DNA of 64,000 bases, taken from positions 1 to 64,000 of the forward strand of contig NZ_MTAZ01000016.1 of assembly GCF_002150785.1 (NCBI RefSeq), written 5' to 3'. Positions 13,265-25,664 of the stretch are shown piece after piece; the first letter of the stretch is position 1; each line of letters starts with the position of its first letter. The notes beneath the pieces are model-generated. The model was not told where the DNA came from, did no database searches, and worked only from the letters and a program-made list of their open reading frames with translations. Position numbers and translations under genes: made by a program. Source of the stretch: Arenibacter amylolyticus (GTDB lineage Bacteria; Bacteroidota; Bacteroidia; Flavobacteriales; Flavobacteriaceae).

Positions 13265-14635
13265 TTAGATGGTCAGTTCCAGCACTTCCTGAAGATGGGG
13301 CACCTGCACCTTCCAACCAAGACTATCTTTTATTTTAACCCTAAAGGCATCCAAGGCACTGGGCTCCCCGTGAATTAAAAAGGTGTTTTCAGGAATATTC
13401 TTTACTTCTTTCAGCCAGTGCAATAACTCTCCTTGGTCTGCATGGGCCGACAGACTTTCTAGATGGTGAATTTCTGCCTTAACCGGAATATATTTTCCAA
13501 ACAGTTTTATTTCATGGGCCCCTTCCAATAATTGTCGGCCTCTAGTTCCCTCCGCTTGATACCCTACCAATAAAACGGTTGTAGCATCCCTATCTACCAA
13601 CTGCTTAAGATAGGTTAGTACCCTACCTCCGGTTACCATTCCACTTCCTGCAATCACCACCTTGGGTCTAGGATTGTCTATGGTCTTCCAAGTATCACCA
13701 TAGGACGTTATAATATTAAAATGGTCACACATGGCACGGTATTCCTTTAGGGAAAGCTTATGCCATTGTGGATACGCCTCAAACACAGACAGTACATTGT
13801 TCCCCATAGGGCTATCGATAAAAATAGGGATGTTGGGAATCTTATTTTCCTTATACAACGTCCATAGCAGGTACATTAAGGTCTGGAGTCGCTCTACAGC
13901 AAAAGATGGAATAATCAAATTTCCCCCTTCGTTAATGGTTTTAGCTATTAAACTTGAAAGAATATCCCCAACCTTCTCTTCTGGGTGTAGTTTATTCCCA
14001 TAGGTACTTTCCAGAAACAGATAATCTGCCCATTCTGGTCGGTCTGGAGAATAAAGCAAGGGGTCCTCTCTACGGCCTACATCCCCAGAAAATACAAATA
14101 GCTTACCAAAGAGTTCCAATTCAATAAAAGTGGCTCCAATGATATGACCGTTATATCTAAATCTAAACCTGATGTTCTCCGATAGGAATAGCCACTCGTC
14201 CTTTTCTGCGTGTTTAAACATTCCAAGGGTTTTTTCTGCCTCCTCCAGGGTATAATAAGGAATTGCAGGACGGTGCTTACTATACGCCTCTTCATTGGCC
14301 CTTTCTGCTTCTTCCATATGTATTTTAGCGCTATCCCGTAATATTATAGCGGTTATAGCTAAGGTGGGTGATGTTCCTATTATTTCCCCATGGAAGCCTT
14401 CTTTCACCAGACGCGGCAAATAACCGGTATGATCCAGGTGCCCATGAGTTAGTAGCACACAGTCTACTTTAGAAACGTCTATTGGAAGAGGCTGCCAATT
14501 AATCTCCCTTAATTCTTTTAGACCTTGGAACATTCCGCAATCCACTAAAATGTTTTGTTCTGGAGTTTCTAAATAGAATTTAGATCCTGTAACAGTACCC
14601 GCAGCTCCCAAAAAATGAATCTTGATCTTGTTCAT
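13265..14635 (-). CDS. MBL-fold, beta-CASP/RMMBL nuclease-like protein
   Basis: A 456-residue cytosolic metallo-beta-lactamase-fold protein of the CPSF/Ysh1-like RNA-processing group. The zinc motif H64-G-H66-L-D68-H69 is intact, followed by FSGDVGR, a beta-CASP domain (SFAVERLQTLMYLL, GSGMVTGGRVL) and the C-terminal RMMBL segment (LESLSAHADQGEL, LIHGEPSALDAF). Related bacterial proteins are RNases. Length is normal for the family. It is the first gene of the stress island on this strand and is found in other bacteria near universal stress proteins. Confidence 0.9.
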   Translation of the reverse strand: MNKIKIHFLGAAGTVTGSKFYLETPEQNILVDCGMFQGLKELREINWQPLPIDVSKVDCVLLTHGHLDHTGYLPRLVKEGFHGEIIGTSPTLAITAIILRDSAKIHMEEAERANEEAYSKHRPAIPYYTLEEAEKTLGMFKHAEKDEWLFLSENIRFRFRYNGHIIGATFIELELFGKLFVFSGDVGRREDPLLYSPDRPEWADYLFLESTYGNKLHPEEKVGDILSSLIAKTINEGGNLIIPSFAVERLQTLMYLLWTLYKENKIPNIPIFIDSPMGNNVLSVFEAYPQWHKLSLKEYRAMCDHFNIITSYGDTWKTIDNPRPKVVIAGSGMVTGGRVLTYLKQLVDRDATTVLLVGYQAEGTRGRQLLEGAHEIKLFGKYIPVKAEIHHLESLSAHADQGELLHWLKEVKNIPENTFLIHGEPSALDAFRVKIKDSLGWKVQVPHLQEVLELTI

Positions 14636-14726: not shown

Positions 14727-15578
14727 TTACCTTTTCCCATGCCCACATAACTGGTTTATTTCCTTGAGGATCTTTTGTTTCCTCGTTGCTGAAACCCCCA
14801 AATGATCCAAGAAAAACTGGTCTTCTATTAGCTGTCTACACAGCACCACATCCCGACTCAACAAAAACTGTTTTTCCCTTTTGGTAAGTAATTGGGATAC
14901 GGTGATGGGATATAGGCCCAACCGATAAATGCGGTCCTTAAGTCCGTCATCTTCTGGATAATCCCAACTAAAAAGATGTAATCCCATACAGATACCATAT
15001 TTTAAGGCATCATCCGTAAAACGGGTATTGGTCACCACTCCGCCAATTACCCTTTCTTTATCCATTTCCCCATCTTTTATCAACTGCTGTTTCACATCTT
15101 GAAATCGAGCGTTGATATACAGCGGTACTTTCACATTGCAATTGCGATCTTCTTCTCCATGAAATTTACATTCCAACAGGTAGATATTATCATTTTTCTC
15201 GGCAAAAACATCAATTTCGTGGGTAACACATACTCCACGCATAATTTTACCTACGGTAGTTTTAAAGCCAGAGTAATCTAAAATGGCAGCAACAAATTTC
15301 TCGAAAGGGAATCCGGTAGGCCCCAATTCGAAGATTGCCCTTTTTACTTTGTACTTGGCGGCATAAATAGATTTCTTATTCTTTAGAAGGGCAAAGGCAC
15401 GGTTGTAAATCTCCCTGGATGTTATTCCGTCATAAAGCTCCTCTTTCACTTGCCCCACAATCTGTTCTACCAACTGGTCATCCGCTCCACTTTGCACCAA
15501 GGAACTGCGCAGCTTGTCCGTAGAGAAGTGCACCTTCTCTCCCGAAGATTTAACAATATCTATACTGACTTTTTCCAT
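14727..15578 (-). CDS. ATP-cone domain fused to a Mrr-like nuclease domain
   Basis: A 283-residue two-domain protein. Residues 1-90 form an ATP-cone (VDIVKSSGEKVHFS-type strand, then KLRSSLVQSG and AFALLKNKKSIYAAKYKVKRAI), the nucleotide-binding unit known from ribonucleotide reductases and NrdR. Residues ~90-210 form a restriction-endonuclease fold of the Mrr type, with D123 in HEID and E136-x-K138 in LECKF, the PD-(D/E)xK arrangement. The C-terminal tail is helical and cysteine-containing. Inferred to be an ATP/dATP-controlled nuclease; no methyltransferase partner is present. It lies between the MBL nuclease and Usp genes. Confidence 0.82.
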   Translation of the reverse strand: MEKVSIDIVKSSGEKVHFSTDKLRSSLVQSGADDQLVEQIVGQVKEELYDGITSREIYNRAFALLKNKKSIYAAKYKVKRAIFELGPTGFPFEKFVAAILDYSGFKTTVGKIMRGVCVTHEIDVFAEKNDNIYLLECKFHGEEDRNCNVKVPLYINARFQDVKQQLIKDGEMDKERVIGGVVTNTRFTDDALKYGICMGLHLFSWDYPEDDGLKDRIYRLGLYPITVSQLLTKREKQFLLSRDVVLCRQLIEDQFFLDHLGVSATRKQKILKEINQLCGHGKR

Positions 15579-15631: not shown

Positions 15632-16477
15632 TTATCTGGATACATTTTGAAGTACCATAAAGGGGATTTTAAGATGCAACCCCAATTTATCGATGGTAGA
15701 CTGGTACAACATGTCTTCCATATAGGAGTGTCTAGAATTGACCAAGACCAACATATTGATGGCGTGATGTTCTATGTGTTTGGTTATTGCTACCGTTTTA
15801 TCTTTCTCTAAAGTGGTCTCAAAATTAAGTTTAGGCTTTTTCAAACAGTTCTTCAGAAACTCCTTATTGTCCTCCTGCCTCCAAGATAGATTGGTAATAG
15901 GATCTATATACAACAGGTGCACCGTAGAGCGGAAAGACCCCGTCATTTCACAAAGCAATTTCAGCTCCCTTCTTTTATTGGGAACCATATAATTTGTGGG
16001 AAAGAGAATTTCTTTTGGAGGATGAAACTCATACCCTTCCGGGATGGCCAGTACGGGGCAATGTACATATTTTAAAAGGTGCAGGGTGTTGCTACCAAAG
16101 CTAAGGTTCCTGTCATTGGTATCGCCCCGGGTGCCCATTACTACAATATCCATGTTCTCCTCATTAACCAGCTCGTTTACCTCGTCTACCAAGTCACCAA
16201 AAACTGCTAACGACTTTACCTTGTGTTTGGGGTTAGGAGAAAAATCTGCTAACTGCTTCACTACTTTCGCTAATGACTTTTTAGTTTTCTGCAGGGTTTC
16301 TTTTTTTAAATCCTCCACGCTTTCAGCATCCATTGTCACTGCTTTCCGATACACCTCATCTGCAAAGGCATGAAGAATAAAAAACTCACACTTTTCATAT
16401 TTAAACACCTGACAGGCATACTTTAATGCATTAAAGGCATTCTCCGAAAAATCTGTGGGTACCAATACTTTTCTCAT
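15632..16477 (-). CDS. universal stress protein, tandem domains
   Basis: A 281-residue cytosolic protein made of two Usp domains. Domain 1 starts MRKVLVPTDFSENAFNALKYA and contains the nucleotide-binding pattern VMGTRGDTNDRNLSFGSNT; domain 2 begins near residue 145 (EILFPTNY) and is diverged, without a clear GxxG motif. Usp proteins respond to starvation, low oxygen and energy stress. It follows the second Usp gene (16580-17476) by about 100 bp on the same strand, without its own TGAY-N4-RTCA site, so it is probably co-transcribed with it. Confidence 0.92.
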   Translation of the reverse strand: MRKVLVPTDFSENAFNALKYACQVFKYEKCEFFILHAFADEVYRKAVTMDAESVEDLKKETLQKTKKSLAKVVKQLADFSPNPKHKVKSLAVFGDLVDEVNELVNEENMDIVVMGTRGDTNDRNLSFGSNTLHLLKYVHCPVLAIPEGYEFHPPKEILFPTNYMVPNKRRELKLLCEMTGSFRSTVHLLYIDPITNLSWRQEDNKEFLKNCLKKPKLNFETTLEKDKTVAITKHIEHHAINMLVLVNSRHSYMEDMLYQSTIDKLGLHLKIPFMVLQNVSR

Positions 16478-16579: not shown

Positions 16580-17476
16580 TCAGTTTTTATATTTAGAAAG
16601 TTTGTTTACCTCCGACCAAAATGAATTGGAAGAAGACTTCTCGTGCAGAATAAAGAAGGGAATTTTGGTATGATAGCTTATCTCATCCAATGCCGGCTTA
16701 AATAATATCTTTTGAAAGAAATTTAAATTTTTGGCTACCATGGCAATCATATCAATGCTTCTTTCCTCTGAAAAGGAGTCTACTGCCCCATCCAAATTAG
16801 AACCACCAAGGGAGAAAAAGCTATGTTCTACATCCTTAAAATAATCGTCTAAAAACTCCTTATTGGTCAACTGATCCTGACTTAAATCTTCTTTTCTTCT
16901 AGAATAATGTACTATGTGCAGGGCAGACTGGTTCAATTGCACAATGCCCAAAAGATTTTCCAATACGTTTATATCGTAGCCTAAATGGTAATCGGTTGGG
17001 AAAGCTATCCTCATTGGCTTTTGATATATCGCTTCTTCCGGAACTGCCAGCAGGGCACATTTCACCTTAGTGATTACGTTCCCCGTATTGGTTCCAAGCG
17101 CCGCGTGTTTTACTTCGCTAGCTCCCTTGCATCCCATTACGATAAGGTCTATTCCCCTGTTGTATACCTCGCGTTTTATGGCATCCACAAAATAATCGTG
17201 TACCGTATGCGACAGGAAGGTATGTTTGGTATTGGGAAGGATTTCTTGAATCCTTCCCACCCAATCCTTTAATTTTATGCGACTTTCCTCTAGAGCACCA
17301 TTTTGTGGACGGAATTCCGAAGGCTTAATGGCAGTCCCCATATTAGAATAGATGGGAACAGGATTAACATGCAGTAAATAAAACGTACACCTGTGTTTCT
17401 TAAACAGTTGCACACTATATTTTAAGGCATTAAAGCTGTTTTCGGAAAAATCCGTAGGTACTAAAATGTTCTTCAT
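16580..17476 (-). CDS. universal stress protein, tandem domains
   Basis: Two Usp domains in 298 residues. Domain 1 begins MKNILVPTDFSENSFNALKYS and carries IVMGCKGASEVKHAALGTNT; domain 2 begins near residue 140 (RIAFPTDY). Start chosen at the ATG at 17474-17476, because it matches the family N-terminus; the open frame extends 21 codons upstream across the promoter. A TGAY-N4-RTCA palindrome (17533-17546) and a TACTTTTA box (17503-17510) lie upstream with class II activator spacing. Confidence 0.92.
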   Translation of the reverse strand: MKNILVPTDFSENSFNALKYSVQLFKKHRCTFYLLHVNPVPIYSNMGTAIKPSEFRPQNGALEESRIKLKDWVGRIQEILPNTKHTFLSHTVHDYFVDAIKREVYNRGIDLIVMGCKGASEVKHAALGTNTGNVITKVKCALLAVPEEAIYQKPMRIAFPTDYHLGYDINVLENLLGIVQLNQSALHIVHYSRRKEDLSQDQLTNKEFLDDYFKDVEHSFFSLGGSNLDGAVDSFSEERSIDMIAMVAKNLNFFQKILFKPALDEISYHTKIPFFILHEKSSSNSFWSEVNKLSKYKN

Positions 17477-17502
17477 TGCTAATTGGGTTTGCTTATACTC
17501 GA

Positions 17503-17546
17503 TAAAAGTAAGTCGCGAAACCCTAAACCTAAATGACAAAGGTCAT
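17503..17546 (-). promoter_or_regulatory. Crp/Fnr-type site and -7 box for Usp gene
   Basis: The site ATGACAAAGGTCAT (17533-17546) is a perfect 5-4-5 palindrome. On the minus strand the -7-like box TACTTTTA (Bacteroidota consensus TAnnTTTG) occupies 17510-17503. The distance from site centre to box edge is 29.5 bp, which would put the site near -41.5, the position of a class II activator. Identical geometry is seen at two other promoters in this island. Confidence 0.7.
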
Positions 17547-17642
17547 GTAGTAGCTTTATTCCAAATAGAGCAGGCCTTTAGCGTTAAAAATAATTTTACC
17601 CTCAAAATTCAAATGCGTTTAGTACCCACTTGAATAATAAGG

Positions 17643-18695
17643 CTAGGTAACCTTTGCAAGACCTTCTTTGTCTAAAATCTGAATTTTACGATCCTCTATG
17701 CGGATCAATCCCTCTTTTTTTAAGCTAGACAAGGTCCTTATCAGGGTCTCTGTTGCCATTCCAGCGACACTGGCTAGGTCGCTTCGAAGAATATGCAATC
17801 TGCCCTGTGAATCTTTTTCTAGTTTCTCTGCAAATTTTAATATGGTGGTTGCTGTTTTCCTTCTAACCGACCCATATGCCATCTCTAGCAATTGCTCTTT
17901 GGCGTCCGTTAGATTCTCCGATAGCAAGGTCATAAGCTCCATGGCTAATTGAGGGTTTTCTTGGAGCAATTTCACAAATTCGTCCTGCGGCAACCCTATC
18001 AAGTCCACTTCTTCCATAGCTGTTGCAGCTTCTTGGTAAGGGAGATTTTTAGTAAAACAGCTAAAACCAAAGAAATCCTCCGCCTTATAAATTCCCGTAA
18101 TCAACTCCTTGCCCCACTCATCCAATTTATGGGTCTTCACTACCCCCTTATTTACCAAATAAATAAAATTGGAGTTGCTACCCTCGGTATACACCTCTTC
18201 TCCCACGGAAAATTGGAAGGGTCGCCCTTCTTCTACCAGATGGTTTTTGAGATGTTCCATGGTTTGCATTCCTAAGCCAATATTGGAGGATCTGGGATTA
18301 ACCGTATCCCTATGCTCGGCTAAAATATTCATCCTAGCCAGTCGGCTGTTAATAGCTCCTACCAGCTCTGCCTCGGTAAAGGGCTTCGTAATATAATCAT
18401 CGGCCCCCAGATCCATACCCTTGCGTATGTCTTTCCGTTCTGTCTTTGCAGATAGAAAAATAAAGGGGATTTGTTTAGTTTGCTCTTCTTGAGACAAGGC
18501 CTGCAAGGCTCCATAGCCATCCAGCTCCGGCATCATAATATCGCAAATGATAATATCTGGCAAGTGCTCTTTTGCAAGTTGCACCCCCTTGTTTCCATTG
18601 GAAGCTGTAACTACCTGGAATTCGGACAATTCCAAAAGTTCGGCGGTATTTTCCCGCAATACCGGATCGTCCTCTATAAGCAACACACGTTTCAT
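17643..18695 (-). CDS. response regulator fused to a Crp/Fnr-type DNA-binding protein
   Basis: A 350-residue transcription factor with three parts. Residues 1-125 are a receiver domain with D9/D10, the phospho-acceptor D52 in CDIMMP, S82 and K104 in TKPF. Residues ~150-265 are a cNMP-binding-type beta-roll. Residues ~270-345 are a Crp-type winged helix, with a recognition helix TETLIRTLSSL; E316 and R320 stand five apart like E181 and R185 of Crp, which read TGA/TCA half-sites. It is encoded 26 bp after the PAS kinase gene in the same operon. In Rhizobia FixJ and FixK carry these parts on two proteins. Probably binds the TGAY-N4-RTCA sites in this island. Confidence 0.92.
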   Translation of the reverse strand: MKRVLLIEDDPVLRENTAELLELSEFQVVTASNGNKGVQLAKEHLPDIIICDIMMPELDGYGALQALSQEEQTKQIPFIFLSAKTERKDIRKGMDLGADDYITKPFTEAELVGAINSRLARMNILAEHRDTVNPRSSNIGLGMQTMEHLKNHLVEEGRPFQFSVGEEVYTEGSNSNFIYLVNKGVVKTHKLDEWGKELITGIYKAEDFFGFSCFTKNLPYQEAATAMEEVDLIGLPQDEFVKLLQENPQLAMELMTLLSENLTDAKEQLLEMAYGSVRRKTATTILKFAEKLEKDSQGRLHILRSDLASVAGMATETLIRTLSSLKKEGLIRIEDRKIQILDKEGLAKVT

Positions 18696-18720
18696 TAACA
18701 GTAAATTTAATATTTATCTT

Positions 18721-19953
18721 TTAATTTAAGGAATTCTTAAGAGGAAATTCAACCGAGAACTCCGATCCTTCCCCCAACTTACTTTTAAAATAAATGTCTC
18801 CCCCTATATTCTCCACATGCTTCTTTACTATATTCAGGCCAATTCCCGAACCTTGTATAAGCAGTGCATTTTCGGCTCTAAAGTATCTGGTAAAAATATA
18901 CTTCAAAGCCTTTTCAGGAATCCCTATTCCCTGGTCAATAATATGAAAAATAATTTTTGTGGGTTGTAAATCCACCTTTATAGCTATTTCTGTATCCTCC
19001 GAGGAATATTTAATGGCATTGTGCAGTAAATTGGTAAGCACCAAAGTAATAATACGCTCTTCCTGATAGATTTCTATTTCATCAATATTTTCAGGGTATT
19101 TTATATTCTGTCCGTCCTTTAAGAGCATATTGGCATTATATACCACTTCATTTATGACTTTACTTAGGGAAAACTCTGTGAATTTATACACTTCTTTCCC
19201 CTTTTCCAATCGTTCTAATGATAGAAAGTCATTTAATATCCCGGTAAGATGATGGACTCCTCCAATAATAGTGCGGAGGTGTTTTTCCCTTTTATCTTGC
19301 TGATCTTCCTTGGTGTATTTCCCCACTAATGTGGCCGAGGTGAGTATGCCGCTCAAGGGTGTTTTAAACTCATGGGAGACTAGGGACAAGAATTCGGATT
19401 TTAGGTCATTAAGCTCTCGTTCCTTTTGGAGGGCACTTTTAATTTTAGATTCCGCAGCTTCCCGCAGCTTTATTTCTTGAGTGAGTTTGGCTACGGTTTC
19501 TTCCAATTCATTGGTACGCGTCTTTATCTTCTGCTTTAATTGGTCATTTAGGTCCTTTATCTTTTTTTCCTGCTCCTTTTTTTCGGTAACATCAATAATA
19601 AGGGCCATTACATAGGACTCCCCAGATAAGTTAAACGGATTTAGCCCCACCTCAATAGGAAATTGCAATCCATCCTTACGCTTCCCGTAAAGTGTTCTAC
19701 CATGGGCCATTCTCCTTTGATCGCGGGTTTTACTAAACTCGTCCACATAGGTATCATGCGCTTTATGAAGGTTGTCCGGAATCAACATGTTTAAATTCTG
19801 ATCCCTTATCTCATTCTCCTTATAGCCAAACATTTCGTTGGTTCGGTGATTGGTGGCTACAATTATACGTTCTTGGTTCACCACCAAAATCCCCTCGGAT
19901 ACCGCTTCGGAAAGCAGTTGAAAAATATCCTTATTCTTCTCAAATACGCGCAT
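18721..19953 (-). CDS. PAS-domain histidine kinase (FixL-like candidate)
   Basis: A 410-residue soluble kinase with no membrane segment. It has a PAS domain (residues ~8-125), a coiled coil (125-180), a HisKA domain with the phospho-acceptor H194 in SHEFKTPL, and a HATPase_c domain (NAIKYS N box, DQGIGIP G1, GSGIGL G2). In the PAS domain H66 (HDTYV) and R86 (HGRTLYGKRKDG) are 20 residues apart, as are the haem ligand and oxygen-sensing arginine of FixL; the same pattern also occurs in many PAS domains not shown to bind haem. Forms an operon with the REC-Crp regulator, its likely partner. Confidence 0.92.
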   Translation of the reverse strand: MRVFEKNKDIFQLLSEAVSEGILVVNQERIIVATNHRTNEMFGYKENEIRDQNLNMLIPDNLHKAHDTYVDEFSKTRDQRRMAHGRTLYGKRKDGLQFPIEVGLNPFNLSGESYVMALIIDVTEKKEQEKKIKDLNDQLKQKIKTRTNELEETVAKLTQEIKLREAAESKIKSALQKERELNDLKSEFLSLVSHEFKTPLSGILTSATLVGKYTKEDQQDKREKHLRTIIGGVHHLTGILNDFLSLERLEKGKEVYKFTEFSLSKVINEVVYNANMLLKDGQNIKYPENIDEIEIYQEERIITLVLTNLLHNAIKYSSEDTEIAIKVDLQPTKIIFHIIDQGIGIPEKALKYIFTRYFRAENALLIQGSGIGLNIVKKHVENIGGDIYFKSKLGEGSEFSVEFPLKNSLN

Positions 19954-20100
19954 TGTATAAAATTACATTAATTTATGTTGTAAGATCAGTCTTAGACCAT
20001 GATAAGCAATCTCTTTCCTGTGAAGCTTTTACGCCCACTTCACTCCCATGTTTCCCAAAACACTAAATATAGCAACCTAATTGATGGCTCCCAAACTAAA

Positions 20101-20114
20101 ATGACACAGACCAT
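20101..20114. promoter_or_regulatory. weak Crp/Fnr-type site
   Basis: ATGACACAGACCAT differs from the TGAY-N4-RTCA pattern by one base in the right arm. It lies between the divergent kinase operon and the TerB-like gene. No -7 box has the 29.5 bp spacing seen at the other sites, so regulation from here is doubtful. Confidence 0.3.
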
Positions 20115-20203
20115 CAAAAATCATTTTTGTATTTTTAAGGGAAGCCGAATTCAGTCAACAATCACTCACTAGGCATTACACGAATTTAATCTAAAACAGC
20201 ACT

Positions 20204-20590
20204 ATGTTACCCACAGAACAACCAAAGGAATTCTATGAAAATTTGGGGAAATTATTTTATGCCCTTGCCAAGGCCGATAAAAATATAGTGCCACAGGAAG
20301 TGGCATCGCTCCAAAACAGTATTCGTAATTATTGGGTTTCCTTGGACGATGGAAATGCAGCTAGTAAGCTTATCCAAGAAAAATTTGAACTACTACAACA
20401 ACAAGAAAAAAAAGCGAAGGATTGTTTTGATGAATTTGAGGCTTTTTACTTGAAGAATCCCCCCTTATTTAGTCCTGAAATAAAAAATCGGATATGGAAA
20501 ACAGCAGATGATATAGCTGCTTCCTTTGCGCATAAGAATAAGTCTGAAGTGATTTTATTAAATAAGTTGAAGCTTTTGCTCTCTTCATAG
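20204..20590 (+). CDS. TerB-like small protein
   Basis: A 128-residue all-helical cytosolic protein. The segment LGKLFYALAKADKNIVPQEVASLQN resembles the metal-associated first helices of TerB/DjlA-type tellurite-resistance domains (helix, acidic DxxxxxxE loop, helix); the rest is helical with no enzyme motif. Function unknown; TerB domains are thought to sense or bind metals or membranes in stress responses. It is a single gene, divergent from the kinase operon, followed by its own terminator. Confidence 0.65.
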   Translation: MLPTEQPKEFYENLGKLFYALAKADKNIVPQEVASLQNSIRNYWVSLDDGNAASKLIQEKFELLQQQEKKAKDCFDEFEAFYLKNPPLFSPEIKNRIWKTADDIAASFAHKNKSEVILLNKLKLLLSS

Positions 20591-20653
20591 CAGGTACGCA
20601 TTTCCTGCTTACTGAACGTACTCACTAATCGAAAAGAAAATGACCCGCTACCT

Positions 20654-20696
20654 AAAAAGCGGGGCCCTTGCTAAGCACTGGCACCGCTTTTTTGTT
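20654..20696 (+). terminator. rho-independent terminator after the TerB-like gene
   Basis: AAAAAGCGG (20654-20662) pairs with CCGCTTTTT (20684-20692), followed by T-rich DNA. Confidence 0.75.
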
Positions 20697-20751
20697 TCAT
20701 TTTATTTACCGGGGAGACAAGAGGCTCCCCTCTCCAACTGGGAAGTATTTG

Positions 20752-21630
20752 TTACACCTTACTGGCAGTATGCTGCTGTTGGGCAAATAGATTTACCTCA
20801 TTATAACTCATCAGGGGAATGGTGATGTGCGATTCCATTTTTTTCACCAGACTTTTATGGAAAATTCGCTGGAAAAAACCGGTTTCCTTTCGTTCTAACA
20901 ACACCAGTATGTCGGCATTAATTTCCTTTGCTACTTTCTTAAGCTTATCCTCTATGTCTTCGGAGAAGATTAGTTGTAATCCAATATTTTCATAATCTAC
21001 CTGTTGCTCCAACATTTCCTTAAACCACTCCAATTGCTGCTCTCCTGCATATTCCTTTTCCGTGGAAATATGTATGATTTCTATTCTCGCTTTGAGCAAC
21101 TGTGCCATTTGAGCCAAATCTTTGAGCGCTAAAATATCTGCTTCCTCAAAAGCCGTAGCATATAAAATTGTTTTTACCGTAGCCTTATCCTTGGTATTGG
21201 GTACAATTAAAAGGGGACAGGTTACCCGGTCTTGAAGTGCCTTGCCAATATCTCCAACAAATAAACCGCGATCTGAATGCTTTTCCTTTCTTCCAATTAC
21301 TAGTAAGTCTGCCTTATGCTCCTTGGAAGTCTCCAAAATGGTATGGGATATGGAATCTCCTTCTACCACCTCCAAACTTATATTCTTTGTAATAAAATTG
21401 GCCCCCAAATGTTGTTTGCAATACGCTTCAAGGATTTCTTTCTGCTCCTCAATCAAATGATACACAATTTGCTGTATTGGTCGGCTTACACCTACCCGTA
21501 AGGGTTTCATTCTATGCACGTATAAGACCACCAACTTGGCCCCCAACTCTACACTAAGGTCATAGACGTATTTTAGGACCGGAACCTCACGCTCGGACCT
21601 ATCAGTAGCATAAAATATAGTATCTATCAT
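20752..21630 (-). CDS. universal stress protein, tandem domains
   Basis: A 292-residue protein with two Usp domains: domain 1 starts MIDTIFYATDRSEREVPVLKYV, domain 2 near residue 145 (KTILYATAF). The usual GxxG-x9-G(S/T) nucleotide motif is modified in domain 1 to GRKEKHSDRGLFVGD and absent from domain 2, so ATP binding is doubtful. A TGAY-N4-RTCA site and a TATATTTA box precede it with class II spacing. It converges on the terminator of the TerB-like gene. Confidence 0.9.
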   Translation of the reverse strand: MIDTIFYATDRSEREVPVLKYVYDLSVELGAKLVVLYVHRMKPLRVGVSRPIQQIVYHLIEEQKEILEAYCKQHLGANFITKNISLEVVEGDSISHTILETSKEHKADLLVIGRKEKHSDRGLFVGDIGKALQDRVTCPLLIVPNTKDKATVKTILYATAFEEADILALKDLAQMAQLLKARIEIIHISTEKEYAGEQQLEWFKEMLEQQVDYENIGLQLIFSEDIEDKLKKVAKEINADILVLLERKETGFFQRIFHKSLVKKMESHITIPLMSYNEVNLFAQQQHTASKV

Positions 21631-21649
21631 AATAATATTTTTTATATCT

Positions 21650-21695
21650 TAAATATAGCGGATTTAATATCGAAAAACAATGATTTTGGTCATTG
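21650..21695 (-). promoter_or_regulatory. Crp/Fnr-type site and -7 box for Usp gene
   Basis: CAATGATTTTGGTCATTG (21678-21695) has perfect six-base arms; its 14 bp core ATGATTTTGGTCAT (21680-21693) fits TGAY-N4-RTCA. The minus-strand box TATATTTA spans 21657-21650. Core centre to box edge is 29.5 bp, exactly as at 17503-17546. A divergent gene starts at 21791. Confidence 0.7.
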
Positions 21696-21790
21696 ATGGG
21701 TAGCCCCAGAATTCTTTTGACATAAAGAAGACATTTTTTATTAGTAAGAGAACCCGGCATTAGCTGCACTAAATTGGTTAGATTTATCCT

Positions 21791-22054
21791 ATGAAAGCGA
21801 TGGCACAACTTAAAAGTCCTTTATCAACAACAGAAGGCAATCTAATTAGAGATATCCTTAGACCTCTCTTTGATATCCAAATCTTAGATCTAGATCTTAG
21901 AAGTGGGCTATTACTAATCACCTATAATGGCAATATGGATCTGATGATGGTAGAGGAAAAATTAATGCAACTAGGACTTCCTATTCAATCCTATGCCTTC
22001 CCTAACCGCACACCCCTACACCCAGGCGGGACGGATACGGGTGGCTTGGCTTAA
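21791..22054 (+). CDS. small hypothetical protein
   Basis: An 87-residue protein without signal or membrane segment. The central part (IQILDLDLRSGLLLITYNGNMDLMMVEEKLMQLGLPIQSY) alternates strand-strand-helix-strand, which recalls a small ferredoxin-like or heavy-metal-associated fold, but no metal-binding CxxC is present and no family was recognised. It is divergent from a Usp gene across the 21678-21695 site and faces another Usp gene. An alternative ATG lies three codons in (21800). Confidence 0.6.
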   Translation: MKAMAQLKSPLSTTEGNLIRDILRPLFDIQILDLDLRSGLLLITYNGNMDLMMVEEKLMQLGLPIQSYAFPNRTPLHPGGTDTGGLA

Positions 22055-22118
22055 GGGAATTTTACTTTAAAGGTAGTTTCCCGTAAAGTTTTACACCAAT
22101 GCATTCCTATTTGCTACC

Positions 22119-22964
22119 CTATCTCTTGGTTAACACCATTAGCGGCAAGGAGGTGTGAAACGCCATCTTTTTAACTACTGCCTCCCTCGTGAGCTTCTCA
22201 AAAAAACTATGGTCGTATTGGATTAAAGCAATCATATCGGCATTGCTTTCCGTAGCAAAATCGGTAATAGCTTTGGCTACTCCCTCTTCAAATTGAACCT
22301 TATGAAAACCATGGACAATATCCTTAAAATATTCTTCCAACCGTAGCTTATTAGACTCCTGAAAGTCGTTGAGTTTAAATTCTGTACCTACCTGAAAAAT
22401 ATATGTTTCCGCCCTCCATAATCTCACCAACTCTAACATTGGATTCAATTCTGAAGACTCAAAGTACTTGAGAAAATTAGTGGGGAGAACGAGTCGCTTC
22501 AGGCTTTGAAAATTAACCTCTTTAGGCACCACTATAATTGGCCTACTCCTAATGGTTTTTAAGACCCTTACCGTATTACTCCCCATAAAAACCTCCTTGG
22601 CTCCTGTAGCTCCTGTAGTACCCATCACTATACAATCTATATGGTGGGTTATCATGGTATTCTTTATGGCAATCAACAGATTATCAGAAATGGAAAGTTT
22701 TTCGAAAGTGTGATTTTGGTTCTTGTGATTTTGCCGTAAATAGTCTAGAATTTTATCCAATTCTTTGTGCGATTGAATTGCCATGGAGTCATAAATCACC
22801 CCCAATCGCTGTTCGTCCTTTGCCCCTAACACATTGGCGATATTTGGCTCGTAGGCGTTTAGTACAATAAAATGGGAAACCATATCGGCATATAGCTTTA
22901 GTGCCGTAAACATTGCATTCCAGGCACTATCTGAAAAATCGGTGGGTAAAAGAATTATCTTCAT
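22119..22964 (-). CDS. universal stress protein, tandem domains
   Basis: A 281-residue protein with two Usp domains. Domain 1 begins MKIILLPTDFSDSAWNAMFTAL and carries IVMGTTGATGAKEVFMGSNT, a complete nucleotide-binding motif; domain 2 starts near residue 145 (RLVLPTNFLKYF). It is the fourth tandem-domain Usp of the island. Its start is divergent from deoC, with a TGAY-N4-RTCA site in the 280 bp between them. Confidence 0.92.
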   Translation of the reverse strand: MKIILLPTDFSDSAWNAMFTALKLYADMVSHFIVLNAYEPNIANVLGAKDEQRLGVIYDSMAIQSHKELDKILDYLRQNHKNQNHTFEKLSISDNLLIAIKNTMITHHIDCIVMGTTGATGAKEVFMGSNTVRVLKTIRSRPIIVVPKEVNFQSLKRLVLPTNFLKYFESSELNPMLELVRLWRAETYIFQVGTEFKLNDFQESNKLRLEEYFKDIVHGFHKVQFEEGVAKAITDFATESNADMIALIQYDHSFFEKLTREAVVKKMAFHTSLPLMVLTKR

Positions 22965-23134
22965 CCTTATTGTTTATTATTGCTTAAACTCCCTATCTTT
23001 AAAATCGATACCACGGGGTGTTGCCTAAATCTTATCCTAAGTCACCTCCAAGGTTGTTAGATTACGGTAGTTGGGGTGGGGATTACAACCTCCGCAGCAT
23101 CCCATCAAAATAGCGTATCCGAACCTGAAAAAAT

Positions 23135-23148
23135 ATGATATTGATCAG
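23135..23148. promoter_or_regulatory. Crp/Fnr-type site between Usp gene and deoC
   Basis: ATGATATTGATCAG fits TGAT-N4-ATCA. Toward deoC the TA of a poor -7 box (TAGTCTTA, 23171-23178) sits at exactly 29.5 bp from the centre; toward the Usp gene a TATTTTG-like box (23112-23106) sits at the same distance but one base short. Either or both genes may be controlled from here. Confidence 0.55.
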
Positions 23149-23245
23149 TCCTAAAATTTAAATACATGGCTAGTCTTATTTATCTAAAAAATATCTGGGC
23201 GCACTTCTTTTGGCCCCCAATAAGCCATCACAACAACCAACCTAT

Positions 23246-23905
23246 ATGCAGCTACAAAACTATATTGACCATAGCCTTTTAAAGGCAACTGCTACCGAAG
23301 CAGACATTCTTAGGTTATGCGAGGAAGCATTGAAATATCAATTTATTGCTGTTTGCGTAAACGGGTCCCACCTACCTTTGGTAAAGGCTAGGTTAAAGAA
23401 TTCTTCTATTAAAATAGCCACCGTATTGGGATTTCCCTTAGGCGCCATGACCACTAAAGCCAAGGTTATGGAAGCAAGGGATTATATGGACCAAGGTGCC
23501 GATGAGATAGATATGGTAATCAATATTGGGTGGTTAAAATCTGGAAAACACCAGGCGGTGATGAACGACATTTCCCAAGTAAAATCCGAGATAGGGACTA
23601 AGGTTCTCAAGGTGATATTGGAAACCTGTTACTTAACGGACGAGGAAAAGGAAATTGCGTGCAAGTTGGCCATGGAAGCCAAAGCCAACTTTGTAAAGAC
23701 CTCCACTGGTTTTGGTACTGCAGGAGCAACCTTCAAAGATGTGAGACTAATGAAGCAAGTAGTTGGGAACAATGTGCAAATAAAAGCTTCTGGAGGCATT
23801 AAAGACGCTGACACTGCCCTACAATATATAGCATTGGGTGCTAGCAGAATTGGGACCTCCTCTGGCATTGAGATGATGAAGGCACTAATAAATAAAAAAC
23901 CATGA
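23246..23905 (+). CDS. deoC: deoxyribose-phosphate aldolase
   Basis: A 219-residue DeoC: class I aldolase that splits 2-deoxyribose 5-phosphate into glyceraldehyde 3-phosphate and acetaldehyde through a lysine Schiff base. The TIM-barrel motifs are visible: IDHSLLK at the N-terminus, VCVNGSH, GFPLGAM, EIDMVINIG, KVILETCYL, and the Schiff-base lysine in FVKTSTGF, then IKASGGI. Start chosen at ATG 23246 (MQLQNYIDHS), the family start; a TTG start at 23210 would add twelve residues. It overlaps deoD by 4 bases (ATGA), so the pair is translationally coupled. Confidence 0.93.
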   Translation: MQLQNYIDHSLLKATATEADILRLCEEALKYQFIAVCVNGSHLPLVKARLKNSSIKIATVLGFPLGAMTTKAKVMEARDYMDQGADEIDMVINIGWLKSGKHQAVMNDISQVKSEIGTKVLKVILETCYLTDEEKEIACKLAMEAKANFVKTSTGFGTAGATFKDVRLMKQVVGNNVQIKASGGIKDADTALQYIALGASRIGTSSGIEMMKALINKKP

Positions 23906-24600
23906 GTTTACACATAGAGGCGAACCAAGGGGATATAGCAGACACCGTACTATTACCAGGAGATCCGTTGCGTGCCGAATGGATTGCCCAAACCTTTTTA
24001 AAAAATCCTTTTTGTTACAATAAGGTGAGGGGAATGTGGGGATATACGGGCACCTACCAAGGGAAACGGGTTTCGGTACAGGGCAGTGGTATGGGAGTTC
24101 CTTCTGCGATGATCTATTACCACGAATTAATTCACAACTACGGTGCCAAAAATTTAATTAGGGTTGGCACTGCCGGAGCAATACAGAAAAACCTACAATT
24201 GGGAGATATCGTCCTAGCCATGGCGGCATCCACAAATTCGGGTATTAACAATAAAGTTTTTGCAAATGCCCATTATGCGCCCACAGCCAATTTTGAATTG
24301 CTGCTAAAAGCGACCCAATACGCCAGCGAATTAAAATTCCCCATACAAGTGGGAAACATACTTACCTCCGATATTTTTTATAGTGACGATATAGAGGAGT
24401 ACAAACCGTGGGAAAAACATGGGGTTCTTTGTGTAGAAATGGAGGCGGCAGGGCTATACACCATTGCTGCAAAGCATGGCGTGAATGCTTTGGCCATACT
24501 TACCATCTCCGACTCGTTAATCACGGGAGAAAAATCTACTGCTGAGGAACGCCAATCCACCTTTGCAAATATGGTAGAGATAGCCCTCAACATTACCTAA
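23902..24600 (+). CDS. deoD: purine nucleoside phosphorylase, DeoD type
   Basis: A 232-residue cytosolic DeoD-type phosphorylase that cleaves purine (deoxy)nucleosides to the base and (deoxy)ribose 1-phosphate. Visible motifs are LLPGDPLRAEWIA near the N-terminus, QGSGMGVPSAMIYYHEL (phosphate and sugar binding), RVGTAGAI, the base-contacting EMEAAGLY and the late SDSLITGE loop. Length fits the family. It is coupled to deoC, so the operon degrades deoxynucleosides to triose phosphate and acetaldehyde, useful in nucleic-acid scavenging. Located in the stress island downstream of a putative Crp/Fnr site. Confidence 0.94.
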   Translation: MSLHIEANQGDIADTVLLPGDPLRAEWIAQTFLKNPFCYNKVRGMWGYTGTYQGKRVSVQGSGMGVPSAMIYYHELIHNYGAKNLIRVGTAGAIQKNLQLGDIVLAMAASTNSGINNKVFANAHYAPTANFELLLKATQYASELKFPIQVGNILTSDIFYSDDIEEYKPWEKHGVLCVEMEAAGLYTIAAKHGVNALAILTISDSLITGEKSTAEERQSTFANMVEIALNIT

Positions 24601-24604
24601 AAAG

Positions 24605-25000
24605 TTATGGCTTAATATTCTTGATGACCCGTTTCAATTTTTCCGAAACTTCATCGGCAATTTCCACCAGATCCAAGTTAATTACCGCCTGCATGGAAGC
24701 CGTAGGATTTACAGCAGAAACTTCTATAAATCCGGCATTCCTTTCTTGGACAATCACATTACAGGGAAGCATGGTCCCTATTTTATCTTCAGCCTGTAGG
24801 GCCTTGTACGCAAAGGGCGCATTACAGGCCCCCAGAATTTTATAGTTATAAAAATCTACCTCTATTTTTTTCTTTAAAGTGGCTTTTAAATCAATTTCAG
24901 AGAGGACGCCAAAGCCTTCCTCCATTAATGCCTCCTTGGTTTTCTCCACAGCTTGATCAAAACTTATATTGGAGAGTGTTTTACTAAAGTAATATTCCAT
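24605..25000 (-). CDS. DUF302 protein
   Basis: A 131-residue cytosolic protein of the DUF302 family, with the typical N-terminus YYFSKTL, then FDQAVEKTKEALMEEGFGVLSEID, YKILGACNAPFAYKALQ and LLPCNV-like end. Function unknown; the fold is alpha/beta and the conserved cysteines (CN and LPCN) are in place. It converges on deoD with 4 bases between stops, and shares strand with the FMN-protein gene upstream, which may form a short operon with it. Confidence 0.9.
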   Translation of the reverse strand: MEYYFSKTLSNISFDQAVEKTKEALMEEGFGVLSEIDLKATLKKKIEVDFYNYKILGACNAPFAYKALQAEDKIGTMLPCNVIVQERNAGFIEVSAVNPTASMQAVINLDLVEIADEVSEKLKRVIKNIKP

Positions 25001-25062
25001 GATCTAAAATTTATAAAATTGGTGCTAAAGCAAGATAATCGATGAAGTTGAACTATTTTTAT

Positions 25063-25078
25063 ATGGGTCCTTACCCAT
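25063..25078. repeat. perfect 6 bp inverted repeat between DUF302 and FMN-protein genes
   Basis: ATGGGT-cctt-ACCCAT. No T-run follows, so it is either a weak processing hairpin or an operator for the DUF302 gene. It does not fit the TGAY-N4-RTCA pattern. Confidence 0.4.
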
Positions 25079-25096
25079 CATAGTTTCCTCATTTTT

Positions 25097-25555
25097 TTAT
25101 TTGGGTTTCCTTTGTTTCCCAGTAATCTCCTTTATTTTAATACGATAGACCACCGAGGTCCCCCCCTCGGTATTCTTACTTGAAAAATCACTGATAAATT
25201 GCAGGTTTACATTCTCCTTATTGCCCGATATCCTTTTTACCCCCTGTAAAAACTGGTGTAATTGATACTTGGAATTACTCCCTTTAATTTCTTCCACCTC
25301 CCCATGTACCATAACAGATTGCCAGTCTTTTAGTGATGATTTATTGCTCACATTCAACGCAACCGAAGGATGCTCACGAATACAGCGCATCTTGTGTCCC
25401 TCTCCAGAAATACTTATGATACATTTTTCCTCAGGATTGTAATAATAGGTGATTGGCAGCACATAGGGTGTATCGTGATCCATATAGGCCAAGTACCCCA
25501 TACAATGGTTCTGTAACACCTCTATACATTGGGCTTCATTAATGTCTTTCATCAT
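25097..25555 (-). CDS. pyridoxamine 5'-phosphate oxidase-like FMN-binding protein
   Basis: A 152-residue split-barrel flavin protein of the PNPOx-like/NimA group. Family signs are GYLAYMDHDTPYVLPITYYYN, GEGHKMRCIREHPSVALNV and WQSVMVHGEVEEI, which form the FMN-phosphate and dimer contacts. Members of the NimA branch reduce nitro compounds; others are general FMN reductases. The natural substrate here is not known. It is preceded by a TGAY-N4-RTCA site and a TAATTTTA box with the same 29.5 bp spacing as two Usp promoters, so it probably belongs to the same regulon. Confidence 0.85.
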   Translation of the reverse strand: MMKDINEAQCIEVLQNHCMGYLAYMDHDTPYVLPITYYYNPEEKCIISISGEGHKMRCIREHPSVALNVSNKSSLKDWQSVMVHGEVEEIKGSNSKYQLHQFLQGVKRISGNKENVNLQFISDFSSKNTEGGTSVVYRIKIKEITGKQRKPK

Positions 25556-25620
25556 GGGTTTTCGGATTAAAATGGTTAGTTTATTCTATGGACATCGCTA
25601 TAAAAAATTAGGATTTGAAC

Positions 25621-25664
25621 TAAAATTAGGGAGATCCAGTTTTTTGCCAAATGACATAAATCAT
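25621..25664 (-). promoter_or_regulatory. Crp/Fnr-type site and -7 box for FMN-protein gene
   Basis: ATGACATAAATCAT (25651-25664) fits TGAY-N4-RTCA; the minus-strand box TAATTTTA spans 25628-25621. Centre to box edge is 29.5 bp, third instance of this exact geometry in the island. Confidence 0.7.

Follow-up and report, generated by a model that had tools for sequence, protein, structure and literature searches.

The FNR and Anr regulons of Proteobacteria are controlled by Crp/Fnr proteins with an E-x3-R recognition helix; the box is a palindrome with a 4-nucleotide (nt) spacer, with half-sites TTGAT/ATCAA in the case of FNR, and stands at −41.5, where FNR and CRP act at class II promoters, in front of genes for the cbb3 oxidase, HemN and universal stress proteins (Usp). 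In the rhizobial FixL–FixJ–FixK and FnrN system (hFixL–FxkR–FixK and FnrN in R. leguminosarum), a branch headed by a heme-PAS kinase and a branch built on an iron–sulfur (Fe–S) Fnr protein converge on one FNR-type box before the cbb3 oxidase, hemN and fnrN (PMC7888657, PMC4999443). A further heme-dependent kinase system, NmpRSTU of Myxococcus xanthus, controls an oxygen-use regulon; its response regulator is NtrC-like, a sigma-54 site is part of its test promoter, and a Crp/Fnr output domain goes unmentioned in the sections of the report used (PMC11841059). Here we describe a related arrangement in the first 64,000 nt of contig NZ_MTAZ01000016.1 of the flavobacterium Arenibacter amylolyticus (hereafter the window, the whole stretch of DNA that was analysed), in which an island of genes around a sensor kinase and a receiver–Crp fusion (REC–Crp) contains palindromes of the form TGAY-N4-RTCA. 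We consider it likely, from sequence comparisons, that these sites serve as activator boxes in a low-oxygen regulon of the FNR type that spans the family, with two E-x3-R regulators, REC–Crp and an Fnr-like protein, probably sharing the box.

A reading of the DNA made from its letters alone (the sequence-only reading) had proposed four such palindromes in the island, and all four are present, as 12-mers at 17534–17545, 21681–21692, 23136–23147 and 25652–25663, with no others in the window. Their number is ordinary (4 versus 2.79 expected, with at least 4 in 30 of 100 shuffles), and across the genome the palindrome alone occurs 162 times, compared with 146 for a reversed pattern. The palindrome count by itself was therefore rejected as evidence, being near chance in both window and genome. 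The spacing is another matter. Three sites, all on the minus strand, have a TAnnTTTA box, the predicted −7 promoter box, exactly 23 nt downstream, which places the near edge of the box 29.5 bp from the centre of the palindrome, as had been claimed. These are the site TGAC-N4-GTCA before Usp2 (17534–17545, centre 17539.5) with its box TACTTTTA at 17503–17510, the site before Usp3 (21681–21692) with TATATTTA at 21650–21657, and the site before the PNPOx-like gene (25652–25663) with TAATTTTA at 25621–25628, the palindromes coming from the window motif scan and the boxes from the composite scan. The composite TGAYNNNNRTCA-N23-TANNTTTR is thus found three times in the window against 0.01 expected, and none of 100 shuffles reaches three, in line with the earlier judgement that such agreement is improbable by chance. 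The fourth palindrome (23136–23147, no strand assigned), between Usp4 and deoC, has just one-mismatch boxes at this distance, one in each direction, and no intact box.

The same spacing recurs throughout the genome. We scanned all 3.99 Mb (101 contigs) for the palindrome followed by TAnnTTTR, with the gap left free between 14 and 34 nt and the reversed pattern as control, and obtained 25 matches, 16 of them at a gap of exactly 23 nt; the control gave 8 matches in all. Leaving out the three composites of the window tests the rule on data that were not used to derive it, and 13 of the remaining 22 matches still fall at 23 nt out of 21 possible spacings (binomial P ~2e-12). A wider scan allowing one mismatch yielded 55 sites against 27 in its reversed control and is excluded from all counts.

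Behind the 16 composites lie ccoS followed by a fused ccoN–ccoO, hemN (above the cut-off of the NCBIfam hemN model) with a Usp gene behind it, an fnr-like gene, a cytochrome c gene followed by one for a fasciclin protein, the gene for formate–tetrahydrofolate ligase (Fhs), and Usp genes on contigs C6, C39 and C43, in addition to the three island genes. Usp is the commonest target and the first gene at 6 of the 16, which sets this regulon apart from the rhizobial one, as does the pairing of a TGAY-N4-RTCA box with the Bacteroidota TAnnTTTR promoter. The family search gave no identity for the genes at C37:69018 and C37:75230. Several of these loci have features of their own. The CcoN and CcoO domains form one 732-residue protein (COX1 plus FixO; L038:4293-6491, on C6); the cytochrome c on C22 is small and lipoprotein-like (L040:4767-6013), with similar genes behind sites in the relatives G192 and G034; and C43 holds a second Usp cluster, outside the island of the window, with three composites within 3 kb (L045:6255-10340).

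Dozens of related bacteria have the same composite arrangement. Among the 296 genomes that we surveyed in the order, 73 belong to the same family and contain 1042 composites versus 49 reversed-pattern controls; the other 223 contain 0 to 12 each. In the neighbourhoods of the 20 best-matching REC–Crp orthologues (19.5 kb each), 72 composites have the 23-nt gap and 0–3 have any one other gap between 10 and 40 nt; an even spread over the genomes would give 2.6. A second set, the best 80 of 582 REC–Crp loci with titled records, comes from Maribacter, Arenibacter, Eudoraea, Aquimarina, Winogradskyella and others, which we take to be Flavobacteriaceae. There, 261 composites have a gap of 23 nt and 0–8 have each of 30 other gaps, and palindromes given an inner spacer of 2, 3, 5 or 6 nt yield 0–2 matches for each gap between 18 and 28 nt. 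An open reading frame (ORF) start (ATG or GTG) lies no more than 250 nt behind 208 of the 261, at a median of 23 nt, as against 45 of 86 at other gaps. The sites share the consensus CTGAY-AWWT-RTCAT, with a T-rich stretch after it, and its half-site CTGAY/RTCAT differs from the TTGAT/ATCAA of FNR.

Conservation of one spacing over so many promoters is what would be expected of a class II activator. The sequence-only reading had placed the sites near −41.5, and the same position is predicted here: because the distance from site centre to first box base is fixed at 29.5 bp, and the TAnnTTTG box of Flavobacterium psychrophilum is located at −12 to −5 (PMC9723704), the centre should lie at −41.5. 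A class II activator bound there would occupy the place of the −33 element and would recruit RNA polymerase.

The first candidate reader is REC–Crp itself (17643–18695, minus strand), in which Pfam models identify a receiver domain, a cyclic-nucleotide-binding fold and a Crp-type helix–turn–helix (HTH). The recognition residues E316 and R320 named by the sequence-only reading are conserved without exception in 21 of 21 proteins (that of the window and 20 orthologues), as is the receiver aspartate D52. A composite directly follows the REC–Crp gene in 15 of 21 loci, mostly before a Usp-like gene, and in 65 of 79 loci of the larger set. These adjoining composites, together with the sites kept in genomes without a close Fnr-like orthologue (see below), support REC–Crp as a predicted reader of the box. 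FixK is a Crp/Fnr protein without Fe–S cysteines that binds FNR-type boxes; REC–Crp may bind them likewise, given its E316/R320 helix and its genomic association with the boxes, and has an N-terminal receiver that is foreign to FixK. Compared with rhizobia, the receiver is fused to the FixK-like protein, so that the circuit would bypass fixK and the step through FixJ/FxkR.

The kinase gene (18721–19953, minus strand) lies immediately upstream of REC–Crp in 76 of 79 loci and is itself preceded by a composite in 9 of 21. The best match of its PAS domain in the PDB is the heme PAS of Bradyrhizobium FixL (E 1.1e-15). The HDSY motif of FixL aligns with HDTY in the kinase, and 20 of 21 kinases, or 72 of 77 in the larger set, retain the axial histidine, here H66; a distal arginine of the FixL R220 type is also present in the window kinase. 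As far as sequence goes, this is a candidate heme PAS domain with the axial histidine, and it probably binds heme and senses oxygen. The partner of the kinase is not a FixJ, with a receiver and a LuxR-type HTH, but a receiver with a Crp-type domain, in contrast also to the NtrC-like regulator of NmpRSTU. The kinase is predicted to work like FixL and is not classed as FixLJ. Second REC–Crp-like proteins are encoded in two relatives (L132 in G292 and L172 in G220); the one in G220 is paired with a kinase that has no axial histidine, which suggests a different signal.

The second candidate is encoded elsewhere in the genome. Four Crp/Fnr HTH proteins exceed the Pfam cut-off, and two of them, REC–Crp and the Fnr-like protein (C6:19183-19866), have the E-x3-R recognition helix that is also found in Aliivibrio fischeri FNR. 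With the same helix and a composite ahead of its own gene, the Fnr-like protein probably shares the box with REC–Crp. By sequence, its best matches are structures of A. fischeri FNR (5e44, 5cvr and related, E 4.2e-23 to 3.7e-22), which has a different cysteine set. It combines a Crp-type fold with the E-x3-R helix, as the FNR family does. Its predicted model has a mean predicted local distance difference test score (pLDDT) of 80.9, but the first 20 residues score only 53 and 61, and a fold search with this model ranked the Porphyromonas gingivalis Crp/Fnr protein 2gau first and 5e44 nineteenth. All 30 Fnr-like proteins compared have the cysteines C4, C7, C53 and C106. Of the FNR ligands C20, C23, C29 and C122, the equivalents of C20, C23 and C122 are kept, and C53 is an extra invariant residue; the four invariant cysteines probably hold an oxygen-labile Fe–S cluster. 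The case for the fnr-like gene generally regulating itself was considered and found weak: a composite is located 20–32 nt ahead of the ORF in 4 of 30 cases (own genome G000, L069, L070 and L072). Two more genes (L066 and L068) would be added if the start is set at the conserved N terminus, as worked out by hand.

Whether both proteins read the box can be judged from their distribution over the 73 genomes of the family, with the caveat that orthologue cut-offs were chosen after the values had been seen. It is unlikely, in our view, that the Fnr-like protein is the sole reader and that REC–Crp reads something else and is merely co-located in the island. Such an account would draw on the close Fnr-like orthologue in 62 of 73 genomes, on the 38 genomes with the Fnr-like protein only, which still have sites (median 9), and on the core targets, which are classical FNR targets. 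The 14 genomes that combine the Fnr-like protein with a close REC–Crp, however, have a median of 23 sites, and the genus means of these two groups differ (P ~7e-5, uncorrected for kinship). Furthermore, the nine genomes with a close REC–Crp and no close Fnr-like orthologue keep 8–25 sites (median 13), and a composite directly follows REC–Crp in 65 of 79 loci. Ten genomes with the Fnr-like protein and a more distant REC–Crp have a median of 16 sites; the single genome with a distant REC–Crp only and the single genome with neither regulator have one each. Reversed controls average 0 to 0.74 per group, with 3 in the one distant-REC–Crp-only genome. Genomes with either regulator alone thus keep sites, and the REC–Crp-only genomes look like the Caulobacterales case, in which FnrN sites are proposed to have been kept under FixK after loss of FnrN (PMC4999443), in another phylum.

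The clearest such case is genus g8 (G076 and G133, with 10 and 16 sites). Of its eight Crp HTH matches at E ≤ 1e-5, all of which were inspected, REC–Crp alone has E-x3-R, which makes REC–Crp the sole candidate found for the g8 sites. These sites front Usp, PNPOx-like, phosphoenolpyruvate carboxykinase, Hsp20 and DJ-1/PfpI genes; among the sites followed, each of the last three was a target in only one genome of the pair. No cco or hemN target was seen among the followed sites, and g8 is alone in this. A division of labour in which REC–Crp owns the Usp genes and Fnr owns cco and hemN was rejected. The REC–Crp-only genomes G192, G034 and G188 have sites in front of ccoS and hemN, and the Fnr-only genome G200 has three Usp targets among 11 sites. 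In G200 and in G266, also Fnr-only, an ORF start lies within 81 nt at 21 of 23 sites, and ccoS and hemN are targets in both. G192, G188 and G034, which are without a close Fnr-like orthologue, also encode a Crp/Fnr protein of about 198 residues with E-x3-R and no N-terminal cysteine motif (L209:7128-7724, L143 and L152, respectively); in G192, two composites lie within about 1.3 kb of it. It is possibly a third reader of the box.

The remaining explanations concern the extent of the regulon, its signal and the reality of the sites. The sequence-only reading had proposed a self-contained island regulon of kinase, REC–Crp, four Usp proteins, deoCD and a flavin mononucleotide (FMN) protein. Three composites within 8 kb, and the density of composites around REC–Crp in relatives, speak for this, but 13 of the 16 composites of the genome lie outside the island, where they front the cbb3 oxidase, hemN, the fnr-like gene and further Usp genes. 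As a self-contained unit it is refuted, and we give it hardly any credence; the island is one target cluster around a second sensor, not the whole regulon. The same regulon and geometry could instead answer to nitric oxide, redox state or carbon supply, which we think improbable. Members of the Crp/Fnr family sense many signals, a point in favour of this alternative. Carbon sensing has moreover been proposed for Flavobacteriales Crp/Fnr proteins placed near MalR, possibly non-orthologous to those described here (PMC8510549). Against it stand the FixL-like PAS domain with its conserved axial histidine, the FNR-like cysteines, the cbb3 and hemN targets, and the rise of cbb3 oxidase and heme enzymes in F. 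psychrophilum under oxygen limitation (PMC9723704). Least credible of all is that the sites are chance matches in AT-rich DNA or the two-part promoter of an alternative sigma factor. The palindrome alone barely exceeds its genomic control, a point in favour of such an origin, but the fixed 23-nt gap, the gain of sites with the regulators and the requirement for a 4-nt internal spacer all speak against it, and the gap scans refute the chance version.

Several observations nevertheless count against an oxygen regulon read by both proteins. One of the 16 sites of the genome, C43:32297, has no nearby ORF start, and an acyl-CoA dehydrogenase ORF begins 282 nt behind another. Five sites (window 17503, C37:69018, C37:75230, C43:29549 and C43:31302) overlap the start of a mechanically listed ORF, where a later methionine could be the real start. 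The third N-terminal cysteine of FNR, C29, is replaced by Asn13 in the Fnr-like protein, which therefore departs from the four-cysteine ligand set of FNR and Anr proteins; for this reason, we call it Fnr-like and not FNR, and an Fe–S cluster would need a changed ligand set. Among the kinases, the distal arginine is kept in just 61 of 77, and oxygen may thus not be the ligand in all of them. Seven of the nine REC–Crp-only genomes carry another E-x3-R Crp/Fnr protein, including diverged Fnr-like proteins with a CxxC motif in G057 and G164 and a second REC–Crp-like protein in G292, so that the clean REC–Crp-only case comes down to one genus. Some genomes have few sites despite an Fnr-like orthologue (G264 with 2, G196 with 2 and G252 with 3), and G284, with a REC–Crp of 39% identity, has 1 site and 3 controls. 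In addition, G236, with neither orthologue, has a single site although it encodes two other kinds of E-x3-R protein, and an E-x3-R helix alone thus does not predict sites.

The gene identities that the sequence-only reading gave for the island are borne out by Pfam. On the minus strand, Usp1 (15632–16477) and Usp2 (16580–17479, behind site 17534) lie downstream of REC–Crp, followed by an ATP-cone protein (14727–15578) and an MBL/beta-CASP RNase-like protein (13265–14635), which each recur in 6 of 20 related islands. Usp3 (20752–21630, behind site 21681), Usp4 (22119–22964), a DUF302 protein (24605–25000) and the PNPOx-like, FMN split-barrel protein (25097–25555, behind site 25652) are on the same strand. 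The DeoC aldolase (23210–23905, with ATG at 23246 the likelier start) and the DeoD-like nucleoside phosphorylase (23902–24600) are on the plus strand and recur together in 2 of 20 REC–Crp islands. The PNPOx-like genes of the relatives G076 and G133 likewise carry an FNR-type site. A 128-residue protein without a Pfam match (20204–20590, plus strand) is found in 11 of 20 related islands, in 8 of which, by feature order, it has its own composite site ahead; it is a conserved member of the oxygen island without a family match.

In the two-regulator circuit that we favour, falling oxygen would free the PAS heme of its ligand, and the kinase would phosphorylate REC–Crp, which would then bind at −41.5. 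The Fnr-like protein would gain its Fe–S cluster and bind the same boxes once oxygen fell further, an order of sensitivity suggested by analogy with hFixL and FnrN (PMC7888657). Both regulators would turn on the high-affinity cbb3 oxidase, HemN for oxygen-independent heme synthesis and cytochrome c, as well as universal stress proteins and salvage enzymes. In F. psychrophilum, the cbb3 oxidase is strongly induced under oxygen limitation, and heme enzymes too (PMC9723704).

Every element of this circuit is of a known kind. New are the receiver–FixK-like fusion encoded beside a kinase that resembles FixL, the changed set of cysteines and the constant spacing to a Bacteroidota promoter; our literature searches, which covered open-licence PMC papers, with most subscription papers and preprints outside their scope, found no earlier description of the regulon. 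We tentatively suggest, as a possibility that falls somewhat short of probable, that the Flavobacteriaceae evolved a two-sensor oxygen circuit independently of rhizobia, in which a FixL-like heme kinase with a receiver–FixK fusion and an Fnr variant with a C4, C7, C53 and C106 cluster use one promoter code and either sensor can be lost while the other maintains the boxes.

Oxygen control in these flavobacteria has been little studied. The fixed-gap rule makes the regulon readable from genome sequence in Flavobacteriaceae, and offers an alternative to the proposal that some Crp/Fnr proteins of Flavobacteriales sense carbon (PMC8510549). With two candidate regulators named, the genomes that have one, the other or both provide a natural experiment on two sensors sharing a box.

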